Positions 9,780 through 38,864 of a stretch of DNA of 50,816 nt are shown here, piece by piece. Below the pieces are notes generated by a model. That model searched no databases. It was not told the origin of the DNA and saw only the letters and a program-made list of their open reading frames with translations. A program made the position numbers and the translations under genes. This stretch comes from Solirubrobacterales bacterium. GTDB lineage: Bacteria > Actinomycetota > Thermoleophilia > Solirubrobacterales > Solirubrobacteraceae. The stretch covers positions 1 through 50,816 of the forward strand of contig DAIDJO010000055.1 of assembly GCA_027451345.1 (NCBI GenBank), in the 5' to 3' direction. The stretch's first letter is position 1, and each line of letters begins with the position of its first letter.

Positions 9780-11933
<2,154 letters not shown>

Positions 11934-20309: not shown

Positions 20310-20345
20310 ACCAGCCCTCTCCCCGGGGACCGCTCGCCCGACGCA

Positions 20346-20363
20346 TCGGTACGACGGTACCGA
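20346..20363. promoter_or_regulatory. Palindromic operator-like site between divergent genes
   Basis: TCGGTAC-GACG-GTACCGA is a perfect 7-bp dyad with a 4-nt centre, in the 82-bp gap between the GH16 gene (start 20309) and the membrane-protein gene (start 20392). Confidence 0.5.
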
Positions 20364-20391
20364 GCCTACGCGACAGAGGCCGCACTTCACG

Positions 20392-23853: not shown

Positions 23854-23854
23854 G

Positions 23855-23882
23855 GCGCCGGGGCCCGCGGCCGGCCCGGCGC
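23855..23882. terminator. GC-rich hairpin between convergent genes
   Basis: GCGCCGGG / CCCGGCGC, an 8-bp stem enclosing GC-rich bases that can form an inner GGCC hairpin, between the GT4 and flippase stops. Confidence 0.45.
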
Positions 23883-23900
23883 GGGTCGGGCGGCGAGCGC

Positions 23901-25436: not shown

Positions 25437-25450
25437 ACCTCGGGTTGGTG

Positions 25451-26854
25451 ATGAGCAGCACGGTTGAGCGCTCCAACGGCTTCCTGCCCCTCCAGCCCCT
25501 GCGGCATGCAGATCCGACCGCGGTCGGACTGTGGGACATGGATCGCGGTCCCGCGATCACCCGTCCGCTCCAGCTACCCAGCCACGGGGCGCGCGATCAA
25601 CTCGTGCTCGTCCGACTCCACGGGGAGCCGCTCACGATCCTCCATCTCGAGGCGGCTCCTGGGGAGGAGCGCCCCGACCAGCTCCTCGAGGCGGTGTGGC
25701 ACGGCGCGAGCGAGGAGCTGATCGCCCACGTCTCGACCTGCGGCTGCCTGCCGGTCCCCGAAGGGGTCGATGACCTCGCCGCCCTCCTCGAGACCGGCGG
25801 GCGCGCGACCCCGCGCCAGACACCGCCACGGCCCCGCGGCCGGGCGGCCGCGATCGTGTGCACCACGGGAGAGCAGCCGGAGCTTCTGCGGCGCAGCCTC
25901 GAGTCGCTCGTCGGCATGGACGGCGGGGACGCTGAGATCGTCGTCGTCGACAACCGGCCGTCGCGAGCCGGCACGCGCGCGCTGGTCGAGGAGTTCGGCG
26001 CGCGGGCCCCCGTGCGGTACGTGCGCGAGTCGCGACCGGGGCTCGCCATCGCCCGCAACGCCGGACTGGCCGCCACCGGCGGGGTGGACTTCGTCGCCTT
26101 CACCGATGACGACGCGGTGGTCGACCCGGACTGGCTCAGCTGGCTGCTCGCGCCGTTCCGTCACCCGGAGGTGCAGGCGGTCACGGGGCTGGTCATGCCG
26201 CTGCGCCTGGAGTCCGAGGCCGAGAAGCGCTTCGAGCGCTACGCGGGCTTCGGCAAGGGCGTGGCCGGGGCCACCTACGACGCCGGCGGGTACGCCGCCC
26301 GTGACCGCTTCCTCTTCCCGTACTGGGGTGGGATGTTCGGCTCGGGCAACAGCATGGCGTTCCGCCGCGAGACCCTGATCGCGCGCGGGGGGTTCGACCC
26401 GGCGCTCGGGGCGGGGACACCGACCGCCGGCGGCGAGGACATCGCCGCCTTCACCGACGTGATCCTGGCGGGCGGGCGGCTCGTCTACGAGCCGCGCTCG
26501 ATCTGCTGGCATCAGCACCGCGGAACCGAGGAGGCGCTCCGCGCCCAGGTGCGGAACTACGGGATCGGGCTGACCGCGGTGCTCTGGAAGTATTGGACGA
26601 GCGATTGGCGGTTCAGCGTGACGGTCGCGCGGAGCGTCCCCGGACTCCTCGGACTCGTGCGGAGCCGGCGAGAGGACCGGGCGCTCGAGCGCCTACCGTC
26701 CGACCTCGCCGCGCTCGAGGGGCGTGGGCGGCTGCTCGGACCGTGGCGGTACGTGTCGAGCCGCCGGCGCGCCCGTCGCGCCGGTGTTCCCGCCCCGACG
26801 GGACGGGAACACCGCACACAGGGGGATCAGGCCGGCTTCCAGACCCGGACGTAA
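25451..26854 (+). CDS. GT2 glycosyltransferase with N-terminal accessory module
   Basis: This is a 467-residue protein. Residues 1-125 form an N-terminal module containing LVLVRLHGEPLTILHLE. The GT-A domain follows: AAIVCTTGEQPELLRRSLESL, VVVDNRP, AIARNAGLAATG, FTDDDAVVDPDW (DxD-type motif), GSGNSMAFRRE, GGEDIAAF and CWHQH. A similar module with HGEPL opens the protein at 29241-30485. Start ATG 25451 (GTG 25448 is adjacent). The 3' end overlaps the convergent GH16 gene by 28 bp. It probably extends or decorates the surface glycan. Confidence 0.88.
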   Translation: MSSTVERSNGFLPLQPLRHADPTAVGLWDMDRGPAITRPLQLPSHGARDQLVLVRLHGEPLTILHLEAAPGEERPDQLLEAVWHGASEELIAHVSTCGCLPVPEGVDDLAALLETGGRATPRQTPPRPRGRAAAIVCTTGEQPELLRRSLESLVGMDGGDAEIVVVDNRPSRAGTRALVEEFGARAPVRYVRESRPGLAIARNAGLAATGGVDFVAFTDDDAVVDPDWLSWLLAPFRHPEVQAVTGLVMPLRLESEAEKRFERYAGFGKGVAGATYDAGGYAARDRFLFPYWGGMFGSGNSMAFRRETLIARGGFDPALGAGTPTAGGEDIAAFTDVILAGGRLVYEPRSICWHQHRGTEEALRAQVRNYGIGLTAVLWKYWTSDWRFSVTVARSVPGLLGLVRSRREDRALERLPSDLAALEGRGRLLGPWRYVSSRRRARRAGVPAPTGREHRTQGDQAGFQTRT

Positions 26855-27903
26855 TCCACCTTCATCTGCCCGGCCGCCCCGAACTGCAGGGTGTTCGAGG
26901 CACCCATCGTGAACAGGAGCTGCTCGGCCGCCCCGTTGTCATCGGTGGTGTACTGCCGCACGAGCGTGCCGTCGTAGTACACGTCGCAGTAGTTGGTGCC
27001 GCGATAGATCCCGTAGGTGTGGAACGCGTTGGACCACGTGCCGGCGACGGTGCCCATGTTGTGCGCCCCGGACGGCGAGTGGTAGTTGACGGTCAGGGTG
27101 CCGAGCCCCTCGGCGACGTCGCTCTCGCCCGCGGCCGGCCAGTTCGGCCCTGAGACCCACCAGGCGGGCCAGTTGTAGATCGTGCTGCCCGAGCCGGCGA
27201 AATCGACCCGTGCCTCGGCGAAGTCGCCCACGGCGAACACGTCCTGATTGCTGCCGATCGCGGCGCCCGAGGTGCCCGAGGCGAGATTCAGCACGAGGTT
27301 CCCGCCCGTCTCCCAGAGGTTGCTCGCGTAGTCGGTGACGTTGTTCTGGTTGGTCCACCCGTTGTGATCGCTCCACAGGTTCGTGTTGAGCGACGTCCCG
27401 TTGAACTCGTCGTCGAAGATCTCGGTCCAGCTGCCGCCCACACCGACGGGGGCCGGCGTGGTCGTCGTCGTCGGCGTCGTTGTCGTCGGCGTCGTTGTCG
27501 TCGGCGTCGTTGTCGTCGTCGTCGTCGGCGTCGTCGGCGTGGTCGTCGTCGGCGTGGTCGTCGTCGGCGTGGTCGTCGTCGGCGTGGTCGTCGTCGGCGT
27601 CGTCGTCGGCGTGGTCGTCGGCGTCGGGACCCAGTGGCGGTGGCGCTGTCCCGCGCGCGTCGCGCGTCCATCACGGGTGACCGCGGCGACGGTGGCGGCG
27701 AAGCGCTCGGCGTAGGTCAGATAGCGGTCGCGGTACAGGTTGTGGTGTCGAGCGTGGTGCTCGATGATCCGGTGCGCGTGTCGGCGGTGGAGCAGGTGCG
27801 ACGTCGGATGGTGGACGGCGGCGGCGGCGATGCCGGCCGTGGTGCCGGCGGCGAGTGCGGTGACCGCGGCCGCACTGCGAAGGGCGGCGTGAACGGGGGG
27901 CAT
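26827..27903 (-). CDS. Secreted GH16 protein with Thr-Pro linker
   Basis: This is a 358-residue secreted protein with a signal peptide (AALRSAAAVTALAAGTTAGIAAAA), a His/Arg-rich stretch, about 55 residues of TTTTP repeats, then a GH16 domain: FDDEFNGTSLNTNLW, NWPAWWVSGPNWPAAGESDVAEG with an intact E-S-D-V-A-E catalytic strand, and YGIYRGTNYCDVYYDG. A typical GH16 endo-beta-glucanase or galactanase role is expected. It is the second GH16 of the locus and, unlike the one at 19404, matches the consensus catalytic motif. ATG 27903 follows a purine-rich stretch. Confidence 0.9.
   Translation of the reverse strand: MPPVHAALRSAAAVTALAAGTTAGIAAAAVHHPTSHLLHRRHAHRIIEHHARHHNLYRDRYLTYAERFAATVAAVTRDGRATRAGQRHRHWVPTPTTTPTTTPTTTTPTTTTPTTTTPTTTTPTTPTTTTTTTPTTTTPTTTTPTTTTTPAPVGVGGSWTEIFDDEFNGTSLNTNLWSDHNGWTNQNNVTDYASNLWETGGNLVLNLASGTSGAAIGSNQDVFAVGDFAEARVDFAGSGSTIYNWPAWWVSGPNWPAAGESDVAEGLGTLTVNYHSPSGAHNMGTVAGTWSNAFHTYGIYRGTNYCDVYYDGTLVRQYTTDDNGAAEQLLFTMGASNTLQFGAAGQMKVDYVRVWKPA
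27456..27627 (-). repeat. 15-bp tandem repeats encoding TTTTP
   Basis: Imperfect 15-bp units (read on the minus strand as GCC GAC GAC RAC GAC-type complements) encode the Thr-Pro linker of the GH16 protein. The shadow frames on the plus strand are Val/Gly runs and are not genes. Confidence 0.85.
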
Positions 27904-28159
27904 GGGAAGTCCTTGTGGGAGGGGATGTGCTCCGCCTGCGGCTCCGGCAGGCGACCCCCAACGCATCGGTGCCACTCGCACCCCTCGGCCAGCCATCCGC
28001 GGGCCGCCTACGACATTTGTCCAGGTTTCAAACGCGTCCGTCAACCGTGCGGTACGGGCACGCGCGGCAGGCGCCACCGGACGCGCCGCGACCGCGACAA
28101 ATGGGCCTGATTCGGGGGCATCGGGGTTTGACACGGACACTTCCGGGAAACACCAGAAC

Positions 28160-29239
28160 GTGCACGCGCAGACCGGGGCGGGATCGCCCACGCAGATTCT
28201 CGATCCGCGCCTCACCGAACCCAAGGCGCGGTACGCGACCCTCGAGCCGCCGGCGACGGACCGGGCCGAGCCGGCGACGTTCTCCCCGTTCAGGGTCTCG
28301 GTCGTCGTCTGCGCCTACACCGCACGACGCCTCCCGGTGCTGCGGTCGGCCGTCGCCGCCGCCCGCGAACAGCTGACGGATGCGGACGAGCTGATCCTCG
28401 TGATCGACCACAACCCCGAGCTGCTCGCGATCGCCCGTGACGCCTTCCCCGCCTCGGACCGTGACGTGCGGGTCATCCCGAACGGGAACGCCAGGGGCCT
28501 GTCGGGCGCTCGGAACGCCGGGGTCGAGGCGGCGCGGGCGGAACTGGTCGCCTTCCTCGACGACGACGCCGTGCCGAGCGAGAATTGGCTCGAACGGCTG
28601 ATCGAGCCGTTCGACGATCCACGCGTGATCGGGACCGGTGGCGTCGCCAGCCCGGAGTGGGAGGACGAGCAGCCGGGCTGGATGCCCGACGAGTTCCTCT
28701 GGGTCGTCGGCTGTTCCTACCGCGGCCTGCCGACCCTGCGGACGCCGATCCGGAATCCGATCGGCGCGAACATGGCCTTCCGGCGCAGCGCCATCCAATC
28801 CGCGGGCGGGTTCGCCGACGGCATCGGCCGGATCGGTCGCACGCCCCTCGGCTGCGAGGAGACGGAGCTCTCGATCCGCGCCACGCGGGCGACGGACGGC
28901 TGGATCGTGCAGCAGCCGTCCGCCTCGGTCGGCCATCTCGTTCCGGCCGACCGCGCCCGGATCGGGTACTTCGTGCGGCGGTGCTGGGCCGAAGGCCTCT
29001 CCAAGGCCCACGTCGCCCGGCTCGCCGGGGAGGACGCGGCGCTCTCCAGTGAGCGACGGTATGCCACGCGGACGCTGCCCGCCGGGGTGCTCGCCGGGGT
29101 GCGAGCCGGGTTCCGCGGCGACCTCTCCGGGTTCGGCCGGGCGGCCGCGATCGCCGGCGGCTTCGCCGTCACGGTCGCCGGATACCTGCGGGGGTTGGCC
29201 GGCAGCCTCCCCGGACGACTCCGGCACAGCGGCGGCTGA
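28160..29239 (+). CDS. GT2 glycosyltransferase
   Basis: From GTG 28160 the product has 359 residues. GT-A motifs are RVSVVVCAYTARRLPVL, LVIDHN, GLSGARNAGVEAA, FLDDDAVPSENW (DDD metal motif), NPIGANMAFRRSA, and GCEETELSIRA. Two C-terminal hydrophobic stretches (IAGGFAVTVAGYLRGL) may associate with the membrane. The start is not certain; the frame is open to 27902 but lacks family similarity upstream. A consensus TTGACA at 28128-28133 lies 26 bp before the GTG, which would give a very short leader. The next GT2 gene starts 1 bp after the stop. Confidence 0.85.
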   Translation: MHAQTGAGSPTQILDPRLTEPKARYATLEPPATDRAEPATFSPFRVSVVVCAYTARRLPVLRSAVAAAREQLTDADELILVIDHNPELLAIARDAFPASDRDVRVIPNGNARGLSGARNAGVEAARAELVAFLDDDAVPSENWLERLIEPFDDPRVIGTGGVASPEWEDEQPGWMPDEFLWVVGCSYRGLPTLRTPIRNPIGANMAFRRSAIQSAGGFADGIGRIGRTPLGCEETELSIRATRATDGWIVQQPSASVGHLVPADRARIGYFVRRCWAEGLSKAHVARLAGEDAALSSERRYATRTLPAGVLAGVRAGFRGDLSGFGRAAAIAGGFAVTVAGYLRGLAGSLPGRLRHSGG

Positions 29240-29240
29240 G

Positions 29241-30485
29241 ATGGATCCGTCGTTTCAACCGATGTGGAGTGGCGAGATCGAGCTGTCCGACCCTCGCCTG
29301 CCCGCACGGCTGATCGACGCCGATGGCGCTCCCCTGCGCCGGGCCCGCCTGCTCGTGCGCGCCCACGGCGAACCGCTGGGATTCCTGCCGTTCGAGACAC
29401 CCGACGGGCGGCTCGACGTCGCTCGCGCGGTCGAGACCGGTGAATCGAGCTTCCGCCTCGCCGCGACGCGGGCGGAGGCCGACCGCAGCTGGGCCGGGGA
29501 GCGCAGCGAGCCGGTGACGATCGTGCTCTGCACCCGCAACCGCGCGACCGGCGCGACCCGCACCCTCGAGTCGCTCCGGGCGCTGCGCCACCGGGCGATC
29601 GAGATCATCGTCGTTGACAACGCCCCGGACGACGACTCGACGCGTCGAGCGGTCGAGACGCTGAGCGCCCGCGACTCGAGGGTGCGGTACGTGCGGGAGG
29701 AGCACGCCGGGCTCTCCTGCGCGCGCAACCGCGGGCTGCGGGAGGCGAGCAACGAGCTGATCGCCTTCACCGACGACGACGTCTGCGTCGACCCGCTCTG
29801 GGTCAACGGGCTGCTCCGCGGCTTCGATCGGCGCGACGACGTGGCCTGTGTCACGGGCCTGGTGGCCAGCGCGTCGCTCCTGCGCCCCGCCGAGCAGTAC
29901 TTCGACCGCCGGGTGTGGTGGTCCTCGAGCTGCGCCCACCGGCTCTTCACCGCCGCGCGAGGCGAGGGCGACCCCGTGCTGCACCCGTACACGGCGGGCA
30001 TCTTCGGCACCGGGGCGAACTTCGCGGCACGCGTCCCGGCGCTCCGGAAGCTCGGCGGGTTCGATGAGTGCCTCGGCGCCGGGTCGCCGACCCGCGGGGG
30101 CGAGGACCTCGACATGTTCGTGCGCCTGGTCACCGCCGGGTTCGCGATCAGCTATGAGCCCGCCGCCCTCGTCTGGCACGAGCACCGGGTGGACGATCAG
30201 GCGCTGCGCCGGCAGATGCACGCCTACGGTCTCGGCCTCACCGCCTACCTCACGAAGCATCTGATGCATGCGCGGTCGCGCCGGGAGCTCCTGCGCCGGG
30301 CGCCGGGAGGACTCCGTCACGCGCTGACGCTGCTCGGGCGCTCCCACGACGCCGTGGGTGCCGCGGCGCTCGACCAGCGCGAGATGACCAGGGTCGAGCT
30401 GCGGGGCATGCTCGGCGGCCCCGCCGCCTACCTCCGCGCGCGACGCGGCGCACGCCCTGAGCACCTCCGCGCCGTGGCCCCCTGA
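29241..30485 (+). CDS. GT2 glycosyltransferase with N-terminal accessory module
   Basis: This is a 414-residue protein. Residues 1-90 form the module (RARLLVRAHGEPLGFLPFETPDG) shared with the protein at 25451. The GT-A domain has VTIVLCTRNRA, IIVVDNAPDD, GLSCARNRGLREA, FTDDDVCVDPLW, GTGANFAARVPAL, GGEDLDMFVR and VWHEH. This pairs the two genes as paralogues. It follows the preceding GT2 with 1 bp between them, so the two are co-transcribed, and it ends directly against the stop of the convergent PPTase gene. Confidence 0.9.
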   Translation: MDPSFQPMWSGEIELSDPRLPARLIDADGAPLRRARLLVRAHGEPLGFLPFETPDGRLDVARAVETGESSFRLAATRAEADRSWAGERSEPVTIVLCTRNRATGATRTLESLRALRHRAIEIIVVDNAPDDDSTRRAVETLSARDSRVRYVREEHAGLSCARNRGLREASNELIAFTDDDVCVDPLWVNGLLRGFDRRDDVACVTGLVASASLLRPAEQYFDRRVWWSSSCAHRLFTAARGEGDPVLHPYTAGIFGTGANFAARVPALRKLGGFDECLGAGSPTRGGEDLDMFVRLVTAGFAISYEPAALVWHEHRVDDQALRRQMHAYGLGLTAYLTKHLMHARSRRELLRRAPGGLRHALTLLGRSHDAVGAAALDQREMTRVELRGMLGGPAAYLRARRGARPEHLRAVAP

Positions 30486-31232
30486 TCAGCCCGGGACGGC
30501 CTGCAGCCCATCGAGCGTGAGGATGCTCATGCGGGCGAGCGGCACGCCGGGAGCGGCGACGGCCACGGCGACCGTCTCCCCTCCCCCCGGGGCGAGACGC
30601 TGATGGACCGTCCAGCCCTCGGCCGGCGGGCCGAGGGCCACCGCCGCCAGCCGCGGGCCGTGCTCCCCGCTGGTGACGGCGACGCGAGCGAGCGCGGGGA
30701 CGATCCCGACGCCGAGCGCCTTGCCCACCGCCTCCTTCACCGTCCAGACCGAGGTGAACCAGGCGGGCACCCGCTCTGCGGCGCACCGGTCGAGCTCGCG
30801 CACCTCGGAATCGGCGAACAGTCGCCGCGCCAGGCGCGCCGGATCGGGTGCAATCTCGGCGGCGGACTCGACGTCAACCCCCACCGCGGCGACCCCCGTC
30901 GCCGCCAGGACGACGACCGGGCCGCTGTGGGCGAGGCTGACGTGCAGCGTGGGCACGTCGGGGAGCCACGGCTGTCCCCCCTCACGGGCGGCGACGCGCA
31001 GTTCGCGGGGCGCGCAGCCGGCGAGGTGGGCGCCGGTCACGCGGAGCAGCGCCCGGCCGACCGCTCGCTGCGCGCGGATCTGCGGGTCGGGCGTCGCGTC
31101 GAGGCGATCGAGCTCCTCCACGCGCAGGAGTCGGCGGGCGGTCCCCTCCCAGTCGGCCCGATCGTGGCGCCCCACGCGCGCGAACGTCAGCCATACGGCA
31201 CCACGCGCCTCGCCCGCCAGCGTCTCGTCCAT
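30486..31232 (-). CDS. 4'-phosphopantetheinyl transferase (Sfp type)
   Basis: This is a 248-residue protein that transfers the phosphopantetheine arm of CoA to a carrier-protein serine. Sfp-type motifs are present: SLAHSG (99-104), GVDVES (Asp120 and Glu122, Mg binding) and WTVKEAVGKALG (Glu167, Lys171). The length fits the Sfp class rather than the short AcpS class. It lies 27 bp downstream of a stand-alone carrier-protein gene on the same strand, so that protein is the likely substrate. Confidence 0.92.
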   Translation of the reverse strand: MDETLAGEARGAVWLTFARVGRHDRADWEGTARRLLRVEELDRLDATPDPQIRAQRAVGRALLRVTGAHLAGCAPRELRVAAREGGQPWLPDVPTLHVSLAHSGPVVVLAATGVAAVGVDVESAAEIAPDPARLARRLFADSEVRELDRCAAERVPAWFTSVWTVKEAVGKALGVGIVPALARVAVTSGEHGPRLAAVALGPPAEGWTVHQRLAPGGGETVAVAVAAPGVPLARMSILTLDGLQAVPG

Positions 31233-31259
31233 GTCTGGGCACCCCTCCAGGGGAGCGGA

Positions 31260-31517
31260 TCAGACCGTCGCCCGGCCCTGGATCTCGTCGACGGCCGCGC
31301 GGATCGAGGCGATGCTCTGAAACACGCTGCGCTTGAGCATGTGATCGGGGAACTCGATGTCGAACTCATCTTCGAGGGCGACCATGATGCTCACGCTCGC
31401 CTGCGAGGACATGCCCACCGCATAAAGGTCAGCTTCTTCGGGCAATGAGGTAGCTGGCACCGTTAGACGGGCATGTGTACCAACGATTTCCCGAATTTTG
31501 TCTTCCGCGAGCTCCAT
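31260..31517 (-). CDS. Small acyl/aminoacyl carrier protein
   Basis: This is an 85-residue acidic protein with a four-helix carrier-protein pattern. The attachment site reads LYAVGMSSQASVSIM, with Ser38 as the expected phosphopantetheine serine; the usual D-S-L is S-S-Q here. Later segments, LEDEFDIEF and SIASIRAAV, match helices II-III of ACPs. ATG 31517 has GAGG close by and AAGGAG slightly further upstream. It is the first gene of the pair with the PPTase and diverges from the hydrolase - aa:CP ligase operon. It is the probable acceptor of that ligase. Confidence 0.9.
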   Translation of the reverse strand: MELAEDKIREIVGTHARLTVPATSLPEEADLYAVGMSSQASVSIMVALEDEFDIEFPDHMLKRSVFQSIASIRAAVDEIQGRATV

Positions 31518-31552
31518 CAACCTCAGTCGCTCCTTGTCGAGTCGTGCTGGAC

Positions 31553-31572
31553 GGGTAGTGGACTCTCTACCC
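31553..31572. promoter_or_regulatory. Inverted repeat in divergent carrier-protein/hydrolase promoter
   Basis: GGGTAG-8 nt-CTACCC, extendable to ACGGGTAG / CTACCCCGT with one bulge, in the 114-bp gap between the two divergent transcripts. A TTGACA (31585-31590) faces the hydrolase gene but no good -10 follows. Confidence 0.4.
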
Positions 31573-31631
31573 CGTAACCCCGGATTGACACGGGAGGTCC
31601 ACGGACCCGCCTCTCCGATCGCCTCGACGCG

Positions 31632-33539
31632 GTGAACACGACGACCCCACCCCACACGCAACCGGCCGCGACGAGCGCCCTGGCCGGCGAGCCGGAATGG
31701 CTTCCCCTCGAGCCGGAGCCCGTCTACGCGGTGCTCCACGTGCCGACGGAGCCGCTGACCGCCTGTGCCGCGCTGCTGCTGCCGGCGTTCGGCTGGGACG
31801 AGGAGTGTTCGTACCGCCGACGCCGGGACTGGGCCACCCAGCTGGCCTCCGCCGGCGTCACCGCCGGGCGCTTTGACTTCCCCGGCCACGAGAACAGCGC
31901 CGGGTCGGCGGTCGAGCCGGGTCGGGCGCAGTCCTGGGTCACCGCGACGGTCGCGGCCGCACGCTGGTTGCGCGGGCGCTCGGGGTGCGAACGGCTGACG
32001 GCGATCGGCGTGGGAGTCGGCGCACTGATCGCCTATCGGGCGGTGATGGACGAGGCGCCGATCGACGACCTGATCCTCTGGGGCGTGCGCGCGAGCGGGA
32101 GGGCGTACGTGCGCGAGTTGCGCGCGTACGCCGCGGTCACCGCGTCTGCCACGGAGGTGGACCCGCCACGCGCCGACGGCGCCATCGGAATCGGCGGCCA
32201 CATCATGAGCCGGGAGACGGCGGCGGAGCTCAGCGCCGTCAACCTGACGAAGCTCCGCCTCCCCGAGGCCGAGCGCCGCCGCGTCCTGCTCATCGGCCGT
32301 GACCGGCACGGCATCGATGCGGCGCTCCGGGATCATCTGACGGCGTCGGGCGCCGACCTCACGCTGCTCGAGTCCGAGGACTACCACGCGCTGATGTCGC
32401 CCCCCGACCTCGGCCTGCGGCCGGCCCGAACCGTGTCGGCCACCGTGGCGTGGATCACCGCCGCACCACCGAACGACATCCCGTCCCCGCCGCGTGCCGG
32501 GAGCGCCCCACCGGTGCGAGCGGTCTCCTTCGATCATCACGGGATCCGGATCCGCGAGCGGCTGACGACCGTCGAGACGCGGCAGGGAGCACTCCGGGGC
32601 GTGATCAGCGAGCCCTCCGGGGAGCCGCGCGCCCCGTTCTGTCTGGTCACCGTGAACTCCGGAGCGCTCCGGCACACGGGCCCGAACCGGATGTTCGTCG
32701 AGATCGGCCGCCGCGCCGCCGGCTGCGGCGTCGTGTCCGCCCGGTTCGACCTGCCCGGACTGGGCGACTCGGACGGCACGGCGGTCAGGAGCTTCGAACG
32801 GGACGAGCCGGACGACCTCGCCTCGCTCGAGGCGATCGGCGCGATCTACGACCACCTCGAGGAGATCGGCCTCGGGCACCGGTTCGTCGCGGCGGGCTTC
32901 TCGCTCGGGGGCTATCTGACGATCCGGATCGCCCGCGCCGACCCCCGGGTGACGGCGGCCCTGGCGGTGAATCCGACGGGCTTCCTCTGGACCGATAAGC
33001 AGCGCAAGCGCATGCTGAAGGACCTGATCGCCGTGGCGGGACCGGACGCGCTGCTCGCCGACACCCCCCCGAACCGTCTGCCACGGGCGCTGCGACCGCT
33101 GGCCGACCGACTCGTAAGGAGCGGCCGCTCGCTCGACGCCGCCGCCCGCCGCCGACTCGCCCACTCCGATCTGCTGTGGCGTATCGAACACCGCCGCGAG
33201 GTGCGCGGCCTCTGCGCCGGACTCGACGATCTGACGGCCGGGCACAGGCGCGTGCTGCTCCTGCTCTCCGAGGAGGAGCAGCTCCTGCGGATGCTCCGCT
33301 TCCGCACGCCCGCGGCGAAGCTGAAGCGCTGTGTCGGGCTCAGGGTCGAGACCCTCCCGGACCGCGACCATCTCCTGCGGCCCCTGCGCATTCAGGAGCT
33401 GGTCATCGACCGGTTCGTCGACGCCCTGACCGAGCTCGGGGCGAGCGGCGGCCCCGCCCCCGCATCCGCGCCGCAGCACGCAACTCCCGTTGAGCCGGCG
33501 GGTTCGAATTGGAAAGAGGTCCTGAGAGATGCCGAGTGA
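31632..33539 (+). CDS. Tandem alpha/beta hydrolase with inactive first domain
   Basis: This is a 635-residue protein with two fused alpha/beta hydrolase domains. In domain 1 (about 30-275) the nucleophile elbow is GVGVG (126-130), so the Ser is replaced by Gly128. Domain 2 (about 300-605) has an intact elbow GFSLG (Ser424) and RFDLPGLGDSDG, with a candidate His580 in DRDHLL. The pair resembles the 'hydrolase 2 / hydrolase 1' proteins that accompany exosortase-linked exopolysaccharide loci, fused here in one chain. It probably releases or transfers an acyl group from the carrier protein (inferred). GTG 31632 is the start. The end overlaps the ligase start by 11 bp. Confidence 0.85.
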   Translation: MNTTTPPHTQPAATSALAGEPEWLPLEPEPVYAVLHVPTEPLTACAALLLPAFGWDEECSYRRRRDWATQLASAGVTAGRFDFPGHENSAGSAVEPGRAQSWVTATVAAARWLRGRSGCERLTAIGVGVGALIAYRAVMDEAPIDDLILWGVRASGRAYVRELRAYAAVTASATEVDPPRADGAIGIGGHIMSRETAAELSAVNLTKLRLPEAERRRVLLIGRDRHGIDAALRDHLTASGADLTLLESEDYHALMSPPDLGLRPARTVSATVAWITAAPPNDIPSPPRAGSAPPVRAVSFDHHGIRIRERLTTVETRQGALRGVISEPSGEPRAPFCLVTVNSGALRHTGPNRMFVEIGRRAAGCGVVSARFDLPGLGDSDGTAVRSFERDEPDDLASLEAIGAIYDHLEEIGLGHRFVAAGFSLGGYLTIRIARADPRVTAALAVNPTGFLWTDKQRKRMLKDLIAVAGPDALLADTPPNRLPRALRPLADRLVRSGRSLDAAARRRLAHSDLLWRIEHRREVRGLCAGLDDLTAGHRRVLLLLSEEEQLLRMLRFRTPAAKLKRCVGLRVETLPDRDHLLRPLRIQELVIDRFVDALTELGASGGPAPASAPQHATPVEPAGSNWKEVLRDAE

Positions 33540-34521
33540 CGTTCGTCTTGACTCGCCCGAGCAGGAGCACTTCCTGCGCGAACTGATCGACGCCGGTCTG
33601 CTGATCGAGAGCGGGGTCCCGGGCGTCTACGGCCACGGCGCGGAGTTCGAGCGCGTGCGGGCGGCGTTCGCGGCGCTGATCACGGAAGCGGGCCGGGCGA
33701 GCGGCGCCGAACAGCTCACCTTTCCCCCGGTGATCCCGAAGCGCAACCTGGAGACCGCGGGGTACGTCGGCAACTTTCCGCATCTCGCCGGCAGCATTTT
33801 CGGGTTCGAGGGGTCCGAGGCGGACGCGCGCGTGGTGCGGGAGCGTGCGGCGGCCCACGAGGACTGGAGCGAGTACGCGGACCAGACCGACCTGATGATG
33901 CTCCCCGCCGCGTGCTATCCGCTGTACCCGGCGATCGCGGCTCGCGGGCCGGTGCCTCCGGGCGGGGTTCTGGTCGACATCGGGGCCGCCTGGGTGTTCC
34001 GCCACGAGCCATCGCTGGACCCGGCCCGCCGGCAGTCGTTCCGGATGCACGAGCTCGTGCGCATCGGGGAGGCTGAGGGGGTCTCCAACTGGCGGGCCGA
34101 CTGGGCCAAGCGCGCCGTCGAGCTGCTCAGCGGCCTGGGACTCGACGCGCGGATCGAGAATGCGAGCGATCCGTTCTTCGGCCGGGCCGGCCGACTGCTC
34201 GCCGCCAACCAGAGCGCCGAGGAGCTGAAGTGGGAGCTCGTCATCCCGATCGCCGGGCCCGAGCCGACGGCCTGCGCCTCGTTCAACTACCACCTCGATC
34301 GTTTCGCCGAGACGTGGGGGCTGCGCTTCGCGGACGGGACCGCGGCGCACACGTCCTGCATCGGGTTCGGCCAGGAGCGCATCGTCGCCGCGCTGCTGCG
34401 GACCCACGGGCTCGAGCCCGAGAGCTGGCCCGAGGCGGTGCGCTCCCGCCTCCGGCTCACGTCCGACGAGGAGGGTGCCGGCGGCGGGCCCCGGCCGGGG
34501 GCGACCGTGACGGCATGGTGA
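33529..34521 (+). CDS. Amino acid:[carrier protein] ligase (class II aaRS-like)
   Basis: This is a 330-residue class II synthetase catalytic core without the N-terminal tRNA-binding coiled coil of SerRS. Motif 2 is VFRHEPSLDPARRQSFRMHEL (Arg158), and motif 3 is IGFGQERIV (Arg284). Cys129, Glu175 and Cys277 fall at the spacing of the zinc ligands known for the Bradyrhizobium aa:CP ligases and archaeal-type SerRS. Members activate a small amino acid such as Gly or Ala with ATP and load it on the phosphopantetheine of a small carrier protein. The divergent 31260 gene is the natural acceptor. ATG 33529 follows AAAGAGG. Confidence 0.92.
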   Translation: MPSDVRLDSPEQEHFLRELIDAGLLIESGVPGVYGHGAEFERVRAAFAALITEAGRASGAEQLTFPPVIPKRNLETAGYVGNFPHLAGSIFGFEGSEADARVVRERAAAHEDWSEYADQTDLMMLPAACYPLYPAIAARGPVPPGGVLVDIGAAWVFRHEPSLDPARRQSFRMHELVRIGEAEGVSNWRADWAKRAVELLSGLGLDARIENASDPFFGRAGRLLAANQSAEELKWELVIPIAGPEPTACASFNYHLDRFAETWGLRFADGTAAHTSCIGFGQERIVAALLRTHGLEPESWPEAVRSRLRLTSDEEGAGGGPRPGATVTAW

Positions 34522-35462
34522 GGCGCTCGGCAGCCGCGCTCGCCGCGCTCGTGCTCACCGGGGCCATCGCCGCGGGCTGCGGGTCGGCCTCGGGCAGCTC
34601 CGGGACCTCGACGGGGCCGCGGGGCTCCGGCCGGGGGCGCTCCGCGCGCGCGACGCAGGGCGTCCAGAGCGTCACGCTGCGCTCGGGCGGGCGGCGCCGC
34701 ACCTATCTGCTCTACGTGCCACCGGGCGACTCGCGCACGCACCCGCTGCCCCTCGTCCTGCTCTTCCATGGCGCGGGCGACACGGCGAGCCACGCCGTGG
34801 GCGAGACCGACCTGCTCGGCATCGCGCAGCGGCGGCACAACATGATCCTGGCGTTCCCGCAGGGCTACGACAACACCTGGAACGAGGGCGTCGGCTCCAC
34901 TCCGGCCGCCCGGGCCGGGGTCAACGACGTGGCCTTCACCGCGGCGATCCTGCGGCAGATCGAGGCGAGGTACTGGATCGACCCACATCGCGTGGTCGCG
35001 ACGGGCCTCTCGAACGGGGCGCTCCTGACCGAGTGGCTCGGCTGCACGCTGAGCCGTCAGTTGACGCTGATCGCGCCCGTCGAGGGGCAGCTGCCGGTGG
35101 CCAGCTCGGCCCGGTGCCACCCCCCTGAGCCGGTGGCCGTCTTCGAGGTGCACGGGACGGCCGACAAGTCGATCCCCTATTCGGGAGGCGGCTTCATCGG
35201 CATCGGCGGCGTCCCCGGCCCGACCGTGCTCTCCGCGCCTGACTCAGCGCGCCGCTGGGCGACGCTCGACCACTGTTCCGCGCCGCCGCGGAGCGCCGGC
35301 TCGGGCGGAGTCGTCTTCACCACCTACGCCCGCTGCACCGACGGGGTGACCGTCACGCTGGCGACGGTCGAGCACGGCGGCCACGCCTGGCCGACCGGAT
35401 TCGGACCGACCCTCGCCAACACGATCGCGGCGCTCCGCACCACCCGCACGGCGATCCCCTGA
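34515..35462 (+). CDS. Lipoprotein esterase (PHB depolymerase/LpqC-like)
   Basis: This is a 315-residue exported lipoprotein with lipobox IAAGC (about residue 22), a Ser/Arg-rich linker, then an alpha/beta hydrolase of the PHB-depolymerase/feruloyl-esterase type: LLFHGAGDTASHAVGET, FPQGYDNTWNEG, a nucleophile elbow GLSNG, an acid-residue region VHGTADKSIPYSGGG, and catalytic His in VEHGGHAWP. It would cleave ester bonds outside the cell. ATG 34515 overlaps the ligase stop by 7 bp, so it is co-translated with the ligase, and it is convergent with the ATP-grasp gene 17 bp away. Confidence 0.88.
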   Translation: MVRRSAAALAALVLTGAIAAGCGSASGSSGTSTGPRGSGRGRSARATQGVQSVTLRSGGRRRTYLLYVPPGDSRTHPLPLVLLFHGAGDTASHAVGETDLLGIAQRRHNMILAFPQGYDNTWNEGVGSTPAARAGVNDVAFTAAILRQIEARYWIDPHRVVATGLSNGALLTEWLGCTLSRQLTLIAPVEGQLPVASSARCHPPEPVAVFEVHGTADKSIPYSGGGFIGIGGVPGPTVLSAPDSARRWATLDHCSAPPRSAGSGGVVFTTYARCTDGVTVTLATVEHGGHAWPTGFGPTLANTIAALRTTRTAIP

Positions 35463-35479
35463 CACCGACCCGGCTTCGC

Positions 35480-36733
35480 TCATGACCCGCCGCTGATCCG
35501 CACCTCCGAGTGCACGCGCCGATCCATCGCCTCGAGCTCGTCGTGATCGCTCACCGTGCCGCGCACGGAGAACACATGGCCGTGATTCCCCTCGCGCCAG
35601 TCGACCGGTTGACCGGGACCACGGTTCAGGATGCACTCGGTCACCCGCGGGTCCTCGGCAAGCTGCTCGAGTCCGTCGACCGCTGTGACCCGGCGCATCC
35701 AGCGCGGCGCATGCACGTAGAAGAGGAACCCGACCCGATCGGGGACGAGGGGACGCTCCACCCTGATCTCCTCCCCGAGCGCGACGCGCATCGCAACGTT
35801 GAGCAGCCGCAGATCGGTGATGTCGGCGAGCATCTCGGGCACGCCACCGCCGATGCGCCCGTTGACCTCGATCACCCGCGCTCCCTCGGGCGTGAACTTG
35901 ATCTCGGTGTGGCAGCACCCGGTCTCGATCCCGATCGCCTCGAGCGCCGCGGTGGCCGCTGAGAGCGCCGCGCGCCGATCCGCGGGATCGAGCTCCGCCT
36001 CGATGAAGAAGCCGGATTCCCGGAACGGCTCGGCGGGCGGGAACCGGCCGGTGATCGCGATGTGGCTCACGTGGCCATGGCTGACCACGCTCTCGACCGA
36101 GACGTAGTCGGCGAAGCAGTCTCGCACCGCGCCCCGCCGGTCCCCGAGGTACTCCTCGAGCACGAGCGCCGTCCCATTCGTCAGGGCCGCCTGTTCCCGC
36201 AGCTCGGCGGGGGACTCGACCCGCACCGTGTCGCGGCTCCCCTCGTTGTCGGTCCGGGGCTTCAGCACGGCGGGGAAGCGCGCGGCGCCGAGGAACGCCT
36301 CCCAGTCCGCGGCCGCCGCTGCCGCGGGCACCGTCTGAAAGCCGGGCACGGGAACGCCGCCGGCGCGAAGGGCCTCGCGCTGGGTGAACTTGTCGGTCAG
36401 CCGCCGCGCCACCAGCGGCGAGTGGAAGGCCAGGCCAAGCCGGTCGGCGAGCTCGGCGGTGAACCGCAACCGCTTGTCCTTGAAGCTGATGATCCCGGCC
36501 GGGGCGAGCGCCGACACGGCCGAGGCCGCCTCCGCGCTGTCCATGCCCGTGACATCGACCACGGGACCAAACCGTTTGAGGAATCGCGCCGCCGCCGCGC
36601 TGTCATCCACCGTCTCGTCCACGACCCAGGCCACCGCGCAGAGATCGTGGGCCGCCTCCATCAGCTGGAAGACGGAGAACGAGGCGGGGTGGTAGACGAG
36701 CGCGAGCGTCGGACGCGTCTGCTCCGCCGCCAC
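35480..36733 (-). CDS. ATP-grasp carboxylate-amine ligase
   Basis: This is a 417-residue protein. A preATP-grasp Rossmann-like part is followed by the ATP-grasp fold: SPLVARRLTDKFTQREALRAGGVPVPGF, the lysine strand FPAVLKPRTDNEGSRDT, VLEEYLGD, and the metal site ARVIEVNGRIGGG. The family makes acyl-phosphates and joins them to amines or amino acids. Residues 330-417 form a C-terminal domain like those of BacD/carnosine-synthase-type ligases. GTG 36733 lies 7 bp past the acyl-CoA dehydrogenase stop. It probably couples an amino acid within this locus; substrates are unknown. Confidence 0.88.
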   Translation of the reverse strand: MAAEQTRPTLALVYHPASFSVFQLMEAAHDLCAVAWVVDETVDDSAAAARFLKRFGPVVDVTGMDSAEAASAVSALAPAGIISFKDKRLRFTAELADRLGLAFHSPLVARRLTDKFTQREALRAGGVPVPGFQTVPAAAAAADWEAFLGAARFPAVLKPRTDNEGSRDTVRVESPAELREQAALTNGTALVLEEYLGDRRGAVRDCFADYVSVESVVSHGHVSHIAITGRFPPAEPFRESGFFIEAELDPADRRAALSAATAALEAIGIETGCCHTEIKFTPEGARVIEVNGRIGGGVPEMLADITDLRLLNVAMRVALGEEIRVERPLVPDRVGFLFYVHAPRWMRRVTAVDGLEQLAEDPRVTECILNRGPGQPVDWREGNHGHVFSVRGTVSDHDELEAMDRRVHSEVRISGGS

Positions 36734-36740
36734 CGCCCGC

Positions 36741-37904
36741 TCACATGTCCTTGCGCAATCTGAGCATGTCGGCGTTCGCCCACAGGTAGCGGTCGTTGCT
36801 GACCATCACCAGGCCGCCGTGCGCGTCGCGCAGCAACCGGTCGAGGCTGAACTCCGAATTGCGGTGATAGCCCGCGATGCCGCAGATCTCGAGCGCGCGC
36901 CGAGCGATCTCGACACCGGTGCGCGACGTCGAGATCTTCAGCGTGCGCAACGACGCGAGCAGACTCGGGTCGTCGATGCTGTCGGCGTCGGCCGCGTCGA
37001 CCGCCCGAGCCACCGTCTCGAGCAGCGCCCGATCCTGGTCGAGCATGGCCGAGAGCTCGGCCAGCCGCAGCGCCGAGGGCGGCGTGACCTCCGGATTGCG
37101 GCGCGCGGCGGCGCGAACGTACGCCTGCGCCTTGAAGGCGGAGGCCTCGGCGAGCCCGACCCACACGGCGCTCAGGAACAGGAGCTGCGCCTGGAGCCCG
37201 CCGGCGCTCCCGATCATGGAGAACGGAACCGGATAGATGAGGTCCTCGTCAACCTCGGCCGTGAGCAGGAACCCGCGGCTGCAGGTCCCGCGCAGCCCCA
37301 TCACGTCCCAATCGGAGCGCGGCTCGAGGGTCGGACGGCGGAGGATCGCCTGCACCTGATCGCCCGCCTCGCTCTCCGGCGTGCGCCGGGCCGTCGCGGT
37401 GATGAGGTCCGCGTACTCCCCGTAGGAGATCGCCAGCGCCTCCTTGCGCAGTGTCACACGGTCACCGTCGCGCTCCAGCGAGCACACGCTGCGGCTCACG
37501 TCACCGCCGGTGCCGACCTCACTGTTCGCGTTGGCGACCAGCAGCTGGTCGGCCACGATCTCGCGCTGCAACTCCTGCAGCGGGTCGGTCGTGCCGTGCC
37601 GGGCCAGGTTCGAGATCTCCATGCTGTGCATCGCCAGCACGAGCGCGCTCGAGCAGCAGTGCCGCGCCATCATGCGGACGGCCGCCGCCATCTCCGAGGA
37701 CGACACTCCGGCGCCCCCGAACCGGGTCGGCACCATGGCCGACAGCAATCCCGCCTCTCGGAAGGCGGTCACCGCCTCATCGGGAAAGCGCGCCTGTTCG
37801 TCGACCTCGGCGGCGGCCGGGCCGGCGACCTCCGCCCCGATGCGGGCGGCGACATCGACGACTGAACCAACGGCTGGAGTGATCTTGGTGACTGCAACCG
37901 ACAC
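36741..37904 (-). CDS. Acyl-CoA dehydrogenase-like flavoprotein
   Basis: This is a 387-residue flavoprotein of the acyl-CoA dehydrogenase superfamily: an N-terminal helical domain (FREAGLLSAMVPTRFGGAGVSSSEM), a middle beta-domain (WDVMGLRGTCSRGFLL), and C-terminal helices (ALRTLKISTSRTGVEIARRALEICG-like, RLLRDAHGG). Where common members have RDA...YEGT with the catalytic Glu, this protein reads RDAHGGLVMVSND, so the usual Glu is absent. Homologues oxidise carrier-bound aminoacyl groups (prolyl-PCP to pyrrolyl-PCP) or act as monooxygenases. A role on the aminoacyl carrier protein is inferred from the neighbours. Confidence 0.87.
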   Translation of the reverse strand: MSVAVTKITPAVGSVVDVAARIGAEVAGPAAAEVDEQARFPDEAVTAFREAGLLSAMVPTRFGGAGVSSSEMAAAVRMMARHCCSSALVLAMHSMEISNLARHGTTDPLQELQREIVADQLLVANANSEVGTGGDVSRSVCSLERDGDRVTLRKEALAISYGEYADLITATARRTPESEAGDQVQAILRRPTLEPRSDWDVMGLRGTCSRGFLLTAEVDEDLIYPVPFSMIGSAGGLQAQLLFLSAVWVGLAEASAFKAQAYVRAAARRNPEVTPPSALRLAELSAMLDQDRALLETVARAVDAADADSIDDPSLLASLRTLKISTSRTGVEIARRALEICGIAGYHRNSEFSLDRLLRDAHGGLVMVSNDRYLWANADMLRLRKDM

Positions 37905-37925
37905 GACGGGACTCCCCTCTCTGTC

Positions 37926-38864
37926 TCAGGCCAGGGCTCGCGCCACGCTCGGTTCGGAACCGACCACGTCGCGGCGCGCCGAATCATCTACACCGTTTGA
38001 CGCAGGAACCGACACGCGCGCGAACACCCCGCTCAGCTCCGCCCACTGCGGCACCCAGTCGTCGGAGGGGCCGGGCAGCCGCGAGAAGCGCTCCTGAAGG
38101 ATCGCCCGCAGGACGCGCCGGCCGTCCCGCCAGGCGCTCAGGTTGCTCAGTCCGTGGATGCGGTCTCGCTCGTAGCTGGGCACCTCGACGATCTCCAGTC
38201 CGGCCTTGGCCGCCCGGACGTTGATCACCGTCTCGACCTCGAAGCCGTCGCAGTCGACATGGAGCTGGGGCAGACAGCGACGCCAGAACGCGTTGTACCC
38301 GTAACACAGATCCGTGTAATGAGTGCCGAAGAGCAGATTGACACTCACACCGAGTGCACGGTTACCCAGGCTGCGCACATGTGTGATGTCAGCGCTACCG
38401 CCACCCTTCATGTACCGTGACCCCTTCACGAAGTCAGCGCCGGCGATGAGGGGGGCGATGAAGCTCGGGATCTCCTCCGGGTCGGTGGACCCGTCGGCGT
38501 CGAGCGCGACGATGATGTCGCCCCGGGCGGCGGCGAACCCACACGCCAGGGCGTTGCCCTTGCCGCGCCGGTCCTGCAGAACGATGCGCGCGTCGGGTCG
38601 AAGATCCTTGGCCACGGCCACCGTGGCGTCGGTGGAGTGGCCGTCGACGATGATCAGCTCATTCACGCCGTTGGGCAGCTTTTTCAGCACGTGAGGGAGG
38701 TTCTCCGCCTCGTTGAGCGTCGGGACGACGGCGGTCACCGTCGGGCGCGTCCGGTAGTCCCGTCGCTCGCGCCTGCGGCTGTGCCGCGTCCGGCTGGCAT
38801 GCTCGCTGGTCGGCTGCCGGTACCCTGCGCGCGGCCGCAGCCGCGTGTCACCCCTGATATCCAT
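37926..38864 (-). CDS. GT2 glycosyltransferase (dolichyl-phosphate mannosyltransferase-like)
   Basis: This is a 312-residue protein. About 40 Arg-rich residues precede a DPM1-like GT-A domain: TAVVPTLNEAENLPHVL, LIIVDGHSTD, GKGNALACGFAAA, LDADGSTDPEEI (DxD), KGSRYMKGGGSADIT, LCYGYNAFWRR and VETVINVRAAKAG. It probably transfers a sugar from a nucleotide donor to a polyprenyl-phosphate or a similar acceptor. No C-terminal membrane helices are present. It is the first gene of the minus-strand operon GT2 - acyl-CoA dehydrogenase - ATP-grasp (21-bp gap to the next). Confidence 0.9.
   Translation of the reverse strand: MDIRGDTRLRPRAGYRQPTSEHASRTRHSRRRERRDYRTRPTVTAVVPTLNEAENLPHVLKKLPNGVNELIIVDGHSTDATVAVAKDLRPDARIVLQDRRGKGNALACGFAAARGDIIVALDADGSTDPEEIPSFIAPLIAGADFVKGSRYMKGGGSADITHVRSLGNRALGVSVNLLFGTHYTDLCYGYNAFWRRCLPQLHVDCDGFEVETVINVRAAKAGLEIVEVPSYERDRIHGLSNLSAWRDGRRVLRAILQERFSRLPGPSDDWVPQWAELSGVFARVSVPASNGVDDSARRDVVGSEPSVARALA

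Follow-up and report, generated by a model that had tools for sequence, protein, structure and literature searches.

The closest described relatives of the locus reported here are the Bll0957 system of Bradyrhizobium and the Atu2571 system of Agrobacterium, with which it shares the ligase family, the zinc triad and a dedicated family of carrier proteins. An acyl-CoA dehydrogenase-like gene, bll0958, neighbours the Bradyrhizobium ligase, a further likeness. The usual operon around such ligases runs carrier-flavoprotein-ligase-DUF1839-GH2, often with a tandem hydrolase in addition, and the Rhizobium, Azospirillum, Phyllobacterium and Mycetohabitans plasmid operons of the DUF1839-GH2 type share carrier, flavoprotein and ligase with our locus; an alpha/beta hydrolase adjoins GH2 in four of the five DUF1839-GH2 regions read. 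Assembly of the butirosin side chain (BtrI, BtrJ) also works on a carrier-bound amino acid, with an ATP-grasp ligase and flavin oxygenation, but there the loading itself is done by an ATP-grasp enzyme, whereas here it would fall to a synthetase-like ligase. In butirosin assembly BtrH carries out a papain-fold transfer to a sugar, while no papain-fold transferase was found in the cluster described below.

We conclude that this cluster is a variant of the known carrier-flavoprotein-ligase-DUF1839-GH2 operon. The window, by which we mean the whole 50,816-nt stretch of DNA analysed, lies on contig DAIDJO010000055.1 of assembly GCA_027451345.1 (Solirubrobacterales bacterium), with the cluster at 30486-38864. 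The rhizobial operons compared carry DUF1839 and GH2; the window cluster has neither, and in their stead holds an ATP-grasp enzyme and a lipoprotein esterase. No GH2 domain is present among the cluster proteins, and no PF08893 (DUF1839) match in the window's genome (85% complete). Seven genes, from PPTase to flavoprotein, fill 30486-37904:

30486..31232, minus strand, Sfp-type 4'-phosphopantetheinyl transferase (PPTase; Pfam ACPS, 1.1e-16)
31260..31517, minus strand, stand-alone aminoacyl carrier protein of 85 aa, phosphopantetheine Ser in DLYAVGMSS (NF005480, 100.8 bits, cut-off 72)
31632..33539, plus strand, tandem alpha/beta-hydrolase, a dead half (GVGVGA) followed by an active-looking half (GFSLGG, His in PDRDH)
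33529..34521, plus strand, amino acid:[carrier protein] ligase, class II synthetase-like (NF005479, 386.1 bits, cut-off 357)
34515..35462, plus strand, predicted secreted lipoprotein esterase of the PHB-depolymerase/carboxylesterase type (lipobox AAGC, nucleophile GLSNGA)
35480..36733, minus strand, ATP-grasp ligase with the L-amino acid ligase fold (Foldseek; nearest PDB entry BL00235, 3vot)
36741..37904, minus strand, ACAD-fold flavoprotein of the ATP-grasp-linked clade (Pfam ACAD domains; V368 in the C-terminal motif)
37926..38864, minus strand, GT2 glycosyltransferase, loosely linked (domain matches)
22741..30485, strand not specified, polysaccharide region with a GT4, a flippase, three GT2 and a GH16-like protein (context, outside the core)

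All eight genes named in the first-pass annotation lie where it had placed them, and the polysaccharide neighbourhood it described is present. The carrier gene diverges from the hydrolase-ligase pair, with 115 bases between the carrier and hydrolase starts; an Rfam scan of the sequence gave no match.

By family, the window enzyme is a genuine amino acid:[carrier protein] ligase, for which loading activity is predicted. Its nearest solved structure is Bradyrhizobium Bll0957 (4h2w, E 1e-79; 3mey was also matched), aligned over residues 24-312 of 330 without a tRNA-binding domain and with a dedicated NF005480 carrier nearby, whose own nearest PDB entries are the Bradyrhizobium aminoacyl carrier protein (4h2w_C) and Agrobacterium Atu2571 (2jq4). 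Cys129, Glu160 and Cys277, which we take to be the zinc ligands, are invariant in 46 of 46 aligned rows of the ligase family, as are Arg158 of motif 2 and Arg284 of motif 3. The Bradyrhizobium-type loading locus and Cys/Glu/Cys triad first read from the letters are thus supported, and the accompanying remark that the pathway beyond loading is undefined still stands. Of the 48 loci searched, among which one contig counts twice, 30 gave a PPTase match. A carrier of the Dlt (D-alanylation) type was considered and rejected on a DltC score of 19.6 bits (cut-off 68); a viral scan with the carrier protein as query found none, and a scan of named genomes gave one locus.

The hydrolase had been taken for an XrtA-like pair, a view that does not survive comparison with the family models (53 of 168 bits for TIGR03100 and 44.5 of 203 for TIGR03101, both far under cut-off). 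In 20 of 20 rows the leading half of the fusion has neither Ser nor Cys where the nucleophile should be, so the protein, with its single active site, is not a working pair of XrtA-type hydrolases. It is a probable thioesterase or acyltransferase, and a homologue occurs in at least 15 of 32 DUF1839-type loci within the stretches compared, several of which are truncated. Three of the five ATP-grasp-type loci keep a hydrolase with a Cys nucleophile, and hence release through Ser would not be general.

The flavoprotein carries the ACAD N- and C-terminal Pfam domains above cut-off, in keeping with the acyl-CoA dehydrogenase-like protein of the first-pass annotation as far as fold is concerned, but the usual catalytic Glu is absent. 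The bases of acyl-CoA dehydrogenases sit, we presume, at a C-terminal and a helix-G site. The former holds V, I or L in 38 of 38 rows (V368 in the window), and at the latter no Glu appears in the region shown (positions counted by hand). Because that residue is missing, the protein is probably an ACAD-fold enzyme other than a classic dehydrogenase; classic alpha,beta-desaturation is disfavoured, and the desaturated amino acid proposed earlier becomes less likely. Dehydrogenases still head the PDB matches of the flavoprotein profile; an FAD-dependent oxidoreductase (3m9v/4kcf) takes ranks 5-6, and DnmZ, a nitrososynthase and DszC come lower.

An amino-acid ligase kind for the ATP-grasp enzyme is supported by fold. 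With its AF2 model (pLDDT 84.8) as Foldseek query, three L-amino acid ligases supply the six best chains (TM, query, 0.69-0.83), ahead of the wider ATP-grasp superfamily; dipeptide formation is a putative activity. The bacilysin-type ligases (BacD/YwfE, BL00235, RizA) provide both the fold and the best sequence matches, yet identity in the structural alignments is 16-21% and the window enzyme falls under the curated NCBIfam and Pfam cut-offs (LAL_C2 20.2/29.4, ATP-grasp_4 23.1/27, BacD 35.6/850 bits). A 37% match in Streptomyces clavuligerus lies in unannotated DNA; neither carrier nor ligase is matched within 9 kb of it, and the flavoprotein only at 24%. In this comparison the lipoprotein esterase was confined to the ATP-grasp type; it adjoins the ligase-linked ATP-grasp gene in four of five loci and none of the 32 DUF1839 loci, the exception being L025, on a contig that ends just past the flavoprotein.

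Across the loci compared, the core consists of carrier and ligase, mostly with a PPTase and some ACAD-fold flavoprotein and often with the tandem hydrolase. The second unit is the ATP-grasp enzyme with its own flavoprotein clade, usually accompanied by the esterase, and it replaces DUF1839, GH2 and the other flavoprotein clade, the DUF1839-GH2 operons differing from the window in this clade and in the transferase/glycosidase step. Co-occurrence of all eight genes in relatives, which the first-pass annotation had set as a test of its reading, is thus a mixed result: it holds for the core and for the ATP-grasp/flavoprotein unit but not for the GT2, and elsewhere DUF1839 and GH2 take the unit's place. 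Of the 146 family genomes compared, 33 have the ligase. DUF1839 is found in 24, every one ligase-positive, and the ends of 25 of 25 matches lie 27-81 bases from a ligase match. The ATP-grasp enzyme is found in eight, all with the ligase (hypergeometric p 3.3e-6), and the ATP-grasp-type flavoprotein in six, all ATP-grasp-positive; both profiles were built from members, which accordingly match by construction, and the flavoprotein threshold was set at a gap noticed afterwards. G666, with a divergent ligase under the cut-off (128 bits), and G731, with a contig of 5.3 kb, counted as misses in the Fisher test. A single family genome, G238, has both the ATP-grasp enzyme and DUF1839.

The ATP-grasp-linked flavoproteins form one clade (support 100/99), while the ATP-grasp type requires three changes on the ligase tree; together these indicate that ATP-grasp enzyme and flavoprotein travel as a pair. 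Proteins below 75% of query length, with query coverage of 50% or less or with 80 bits or less were left out of the trees, which keeps G661, G693 and G697, whose ligases are fragments, outside the ligase tree. Independent contrasts on it gave five pairs, in which the ATP-grasp type went with absence of DUF1839 in 3.5 on average and the opposite in none, a tendency that is weak after tree correction (sign test, median p 0.25). By sequence comparison, then, the module is a different one, both modules are restricted within the family to ligase-positive genomes, and the linked flavoproteins share a common ancestry. The titles and abstracts of the literature searched describe no ATP-grasp version of the loading operon. 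As a separate point, the three changes can also be read as fewer gains together with losses.

Overall, we favour, at even chances, a tRNA-independent loading core with an exchanged downstream module, in which loading of a small amino acid is followed by its oxidation, its release and amide coupling by the ATP-grasp enzyme. The module replaced, the more widespread of the two, would be an ACAD-fold flavoprotein with DUF1839 (papain-fold, a probable aminoacyl transferase) and GH2. In the window, the PPTase would arm the carrier protein with phosphopantetheine; the ligase would adenylate a small amino acid, Gly or Ala being the likeliest, and pass it to the phosphopantetheine; the flavoprotein would oxidise the tethered aminoacyl group, monooxygenation being likelier than alpha,beta-desaturation; the active-looking half of the hydrolase would release or transfer it; the ATP-grasp enzyme would join a second amino acid or amine; and the product would be exported, with the lipoprotein esterase working outside on it or its target. 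Only family membership speaks for this choice of substrate, oxidation step and ATP-grasp partner. In favour of the exchange, a site between ilvN and a chorismate-binding gene exists in congeners in DUF1839-type, ATP-grasp-type, eroded and, in the window's own genome, empty states, and in G160, a single contig, ligase and carrier share a locus while two others hold ATP-grasp enzyme and flavoprotein. Against it, neither module adjoins the ligase in G043, G690, G731, G160, G653 (L051) or Tsukamurella, with an ATP-grasp gene elsewhere in the genome in G690 and G160.

A serious rival, though on balance an unlikely one, is that the charged and perhaps oxidised amino acid decorates the neighbouring exopolysaccharide, with the ATP-grasp enzyme extending or attaching it and the esterase trimming outside, for which teichoic acid D-alanylation and butirosin side-chain transfer are models. 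It draws on the polysaccharide genes at 22741-30485, on homologues of the window's flippase and GT2 at L017, a congener's cluster, and of its flippase or GT4 near the DUF1839-type loci L018, L019 and L021, on Tsukamurella plasmid 13, where ligase, carrier and PPTase lie within a glycosyltransferase/EPS cluster, and on GH2 as part of the usual operon. For the DUF1839 version, Iyer et al. 2010 propose ligation to a surface sugar amine, and a papain-fold survey classes DUF1839 as papain-like and proposes glycan processing at the cell wall. However, it is exactly the module with the plausible sugar transferase and the glycosidase that the window lacks, the ATP-grasp fold is closest to amino acid ligases, and the ATP-grasp-type loci L020 and L025 have no homologues of the window's flippase or glycosyltransferases (at L095 the search covered the GT2 alone).

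That the ATP-grasp enzyme and flavoprotein instead serve an unrelated amino-acid or peptide pathway, and sit beside the ligase by chance in a few genomes, we regard as improbable. Five of 12 ATP-grasp matches do lie on contigs other than the ligase's or far off, and weaker relatives turn up in genomes without the ligase (3 of 299, E 3e-78 to 2e-41). Yet all eight ATP-grasp-positive family genomes have the ligase even where unlinked, L020 and L095, from different genera, share the order flavoprotein-ATP-grasp-esterase-carrier-ligase (L095 with a second carrier), and each of the eight family copies of the flavoprotein clade has such an ATP-grasp gene no more than 1 kb away. Least probable is that ligase and carrier are decaying remnants of DUF1839 loss in a genome without an active pathway. 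At the ilvN site G160 retains just carrier and ligase, and the window's own genome has nothing. But the window cluster, at a different site, is complete, the expected catalytic residues are in place in ligase, carrier and ATP-grasp enzyme, and the frames of PPTase, hydrolase, ligase, ATP-grasp enzyme and flavoprotein are uninterrupted and show a strong G+C bias by codon position.

Since the usual processing enzymes are exchanged relative to those of relatives, the comparison suggests one loading system feeding different products. Priestia plasmids, in the order acpS-ACP-ACAD-ligase-DMT-ATP-grasp-alpha/beta hydrolase-alaP-alr, share the core and an ATP-grasp enzyme, with no DUF1839 on the plasmid; their enzyme, however, a distant relative, belongs to the PRK07206/DdaF kind (17% identity to the window's), and in the tree their flavoprotein, long-branched, falls to the DUF1839-type side. 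The cluster adds a thioesterase-II-like hydrolase, a DMT transporter (exporter), the alanine permease AlaP and the alanine racemase Alr. A bolder and more doubtful idea, less probable than decoration of a glycan, is that the core serves as a platform into which peptide-ligase modules have been plugged repeatedly, and that carrier-bound alanine or glycine, once oxidised, is turned into small dipeptide antimetabolites for secretion without NRPSs or tRNA; the Priestia racemase and a neighbouring D-Ala-D-Ala ligase might then be self-protection, and alanine metabolism the target. Were the peptide-ligase reading true, this would be a modified-dipeptide route with a tRNA-synthetase relative in place of an NRPS adenylation domain. 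An exchangeable module also makes the kept part (loading) and the swapped part (transfer or ligation) separately testable, and the natural swap predicts the same stage of action for papain-fold DUF1839 and the ATP-grasp enzyme.

The flanking polysaccharide genes fit glycan decoration better than they fit the exchanged-module reading, and the glycan substituent first suggested for this locus is in essence the proposal of Iyer et al. 2010 for the DUF1839 version. The GT2, counted at first as a member of the set, proves to be a loosely linked neighbour, with close homologues (58-76%) beside the loci of only three other genomes, G705, G709 and G724.

The window locus is real and contains a variant of a known amino acid loading system. 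All eight genes listed in the first-pass annotation exist and are correctly positioned, in a window that makes up an entire contig of 50,816 bases. The amino acid:[carrier protein] ligase scores 386 bits against a curated cut-off of 357, and its residues 24-312 align with the Bradyrhizobium Bll0957 structures. The Cys/Glu/Cys zinc triad that had been read from the sequence is borne out as C129, E160 and C277, unchanged in 46 of 46 aligned ligase rows, as are the motif-2 and motif-3 arginines. Ligases of the Bradyrhizobium type load Gly or Ala. The stand-alone carrier protein likewise exceeds its own cut-off (100.8 bits against 72) and the proteins closest to it are the aminoacyl carrier protein of Bradyrhizobium and Atu2571 of Agrobacterium.

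The usual form of the system has a different complement of genes. In all five plasmid regions read (two from Rhizobium, and one each from Azospirillum, Phyllobacterium and Mycetohabitans), the genes are annotated in the order carrier, acyl-CoA dehydrogenase family protein, ligase, DUF1839 and glycoside hydrolase family 2 (GH2), followed in four of the five by an alpha/beta hydrolase. Across the plasmid collection the ligase occurs in 60 records (E up to 1e-30), DUF1839 in 59 (E up to 1e-5), and the two together in 57; the three ligase records lacking DUF1839 are two Priestia and one Tsukamurella, and the two DUF1839 records lacking the ligase are Rhizobium. According to PMC10318531, DUF1839 folds like papain and has a C(T/S)H site, and Cys37 is unchanged in all 32 rows aligned here. 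Iyer and colleagues, in a 2010 note in proof, predicted that an Atu2574-type conserved protein links an amino acid with the amine of a surface sugar and that the amino acid is modified by the redox enzyme (PMC2922099); we infer that Atu2574 is a DUF1839 protein.

DUF1839 has no match in the window's genome (85% complete, 133 contigs), and GH2 is absent among the proteins of the window cluster, which instead encodes, besides an ATP-grasp enzyme and a lipoprotein esterase, a flavoprotein belonging to a different clade. An AF2 model of the ATP-grasp enzyme, built from four alignment rows, has a pLDDT of 84.8, and its best six Foldseek chains represent three L-amino acid ligases at 16-21% identity. 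The flavoprotein profile best matches dehydrogenases and next the FAD-dependent oxidoreductase 3m9v/4kcf; DnmZ, a nitrososynthase and DszC rank below these. At the C-terminal position that we take, by hand count, to be where acyl-CoA dehydrogenases carry their catalytic Glu, 38 of 38 flavoprotein rows have V, I or L, and no Glu was found at the helix-G position. The tandem hydrolase lacks the first-half nucleophile in 20 of 20 rows, and its second-half elbow carries Cys in 18 and Ser in two, namely the window's protein and one copy from the congener G705.

In a class sample of 299 genomes, 16 carry the ligase; DUF1839 adjoins it in 11 and not in five, and in three of those five an ATP-grasp gene adjoins it. 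Strong ATP-grasp matches fall in five genomes of this sample, every one ligase-positive, and three ligase-negative genomes give weaker ones, with E from 3e-78 to 2e-41 and an internal stop in one of them. Among 146 genomes of the family, 33 have a ligase match (28 exceeding the cut-off) and 24 have DUF1839, all ligase-positive, the ends of all 25 DUF1839 matches being 27 to 81 bases away from a ligase match. By profile (E up to 1e-40), ATP-grasp is found in eight family genomes, again all ligase-positive, with seven of 12 copies near a ligase; eight copies of the ATP-grasp-type flavoprotein, set apart by E below 1e-137 where the next match has 3e-122, occur in six genomes, none of them more than 1 kb from such an ATP-grasp gene. 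Some of the members counted went into building the two profiles. With kinship ignored, the confinement to ligase genomes has a hypergeometric p of 2e-20 for DUF1839 and 3.3e-6 for ATP-grasp, and ATP-grasp is present in 7/9 ligase genomes without DUF1839 versus 1/24 with it (Fisher p 6e-5). Independent pairs on the ligase tree, only five in number, gave a mean of 3.5 in favour and 0 against (sign-test median p 0.25).

There is good support for a processing module that differs and moves as one unit. On the ligase tree (46 rows) the ATP-grasp type requires three changes, in the window with G705, in G151 and in G121, each forced by starred branches and each seated among DUF1839-type ligases; these may also represent one gain and two losses. 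On the flavoprotein tree (38 rows), all six ATP-grasp-linked flavoproteins form one clade (100/99), a grouping kept when two more are added (SH-aLRT 99), and thus the flavoprotein travels with the ATP-grasp enzyme and not with the local ligase. Gene order runs PPTase-flavoprotein-ATP-grasp-esterase-carrier-ligase at locus L020 and flavoprotein-ATP-grasp-esterase-carrier-carrier-ligase at L095. The esterase adjoins four of the five ligase-linked ATP-grasp loci, the exception (L025) lying on a contig that ends just past the flavoprotein, and is found in 0 of 32 DUF1839 loci.

Within the window's genus, one chromosomal site exists in four states. In three genomes (G238, G278 and G698) ilvN and a chorismate-binding gene flank a DUF1839-type operon; in G693, ilvB-ilvN is followed by an ATP-grasp-type cluster whose contig ends in the ligase; G160 retains only carrier and ligase; and in the window's genome the ilvN and chorismate-binding gene matches lie 125 bases apart with nothing between. 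G700 has a DUF1839-type operon just before ilvB, and no ilv match was found in the stretches examined around the loci of G690, G696 and G705. In G160, a single contig, ATP-grasp and flavoprotein genes occur together at two other places, one of which (L048) has a luciferase-like (F420-type) oxidoreductase between them at 9781-10584. A contig of G705 (C54; L017, the same as L079/L097) holds two ligases, two tandem hydrolases and three ATP-grasp genes, and another (C143; L094) a further ATP-grasp/flavoprotein pair. Because the ilv site is empty in the window's genome, the window cluster occupies a different site, beside polysaccharide genes. Other features of the window are:

14829-14905, + strand, tRNA-Lys(ctt); the long open frame 14427-15878 on the opposite strand overlaps it, which makes the extent of that frame doubtful
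20029-22701, + strand, 890-aa protein at the margin of the polysaccharide region, with no Pfam match at E up to 0.001
26827-28224, - strand, GH16-like protein whose linker is a long Thr/Pro repeat, through which several frames are open
39297-40343, PLP lyase, adjoining the DUF6421 protein
40340-42400, - strand, DUF6421 protein with a DUF4350-like N-terminal part, adjoining the PLP lyase
42505-44868, - strand, GT4 glycosyltransferase fused to a lysylphosphatidylglycerol-synthase-type membrane domain

A general pathway can be proposed. From the protein families, the PPTase would arm the carrier, and the ligase would adenylate a small amino acid and transfer it to the carrier phosphopantetheine. 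The flavoprotein may then oxidise the tethered aminoacyl group, the second half of the tandem hydrolase may release or transfer it, and the ATP-grasp enzyme may form an amide with a second amino acid or an amine. The product would exit the cell, where the lipoprotein esterase could act on it or on its target. This product may be a small amide or dipeptide, or else a glycan substituent. One review names Ala, Gly and Ser among the amino acids that ligases of this class load. A table of the proteins altered in a Bradyrhizobium phaR mutant (PMC10888616) includes bll0957 together with its neighbour, the acd bll0958, each at 3.0-fold.

The Priestia plasmids, p-LAD4 of P. aryabhattai (L099, 7127-15686) and one from P. 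megaterium (L103), carry a second version of the system, in what looks like a small-molecule cluster: acpS, carrier, flavoprotein, ligase, DMT transporter, ATP-grasp, alpha/beta hydrolase, alanine permease and alanine racemase. The alanine genes may hint at Ala as substrate. Upstream lie a D-alanine--D-alanine ligase and comX, and ComX signalling genes adjoin the cluster. On p-LAD4, carrier and ligase both exceed their cut-offs, and the hydrolase, which has no NCBIfam match, appears from its GHSMG elbow to resemble a type II thioesterase. The p-LAD4 ATP-grasp enzyme passes PRK07206 and scores 212 bits, under the cut-off of 840, for the dapdiamide synthase DdaF; it is only 17% identical to the window's enzyme, although profiles place the two in the same superfamily (hhalign probability 98). 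The Priestia flavoprotein, on a long branch, falls on the side of the tree where the DUF1839-type flavoproteins are. On Tsukamurella tyrosinosolvens plasmid 13 (L104, 6740-15327), neither DUF1839 nor ATP-grasp is annotated in the 20.9-kb stretch; ligase, carrier and PPTase lie among the glycosyltransferases of an exopolysaccharide cluster, and this may be a third type.
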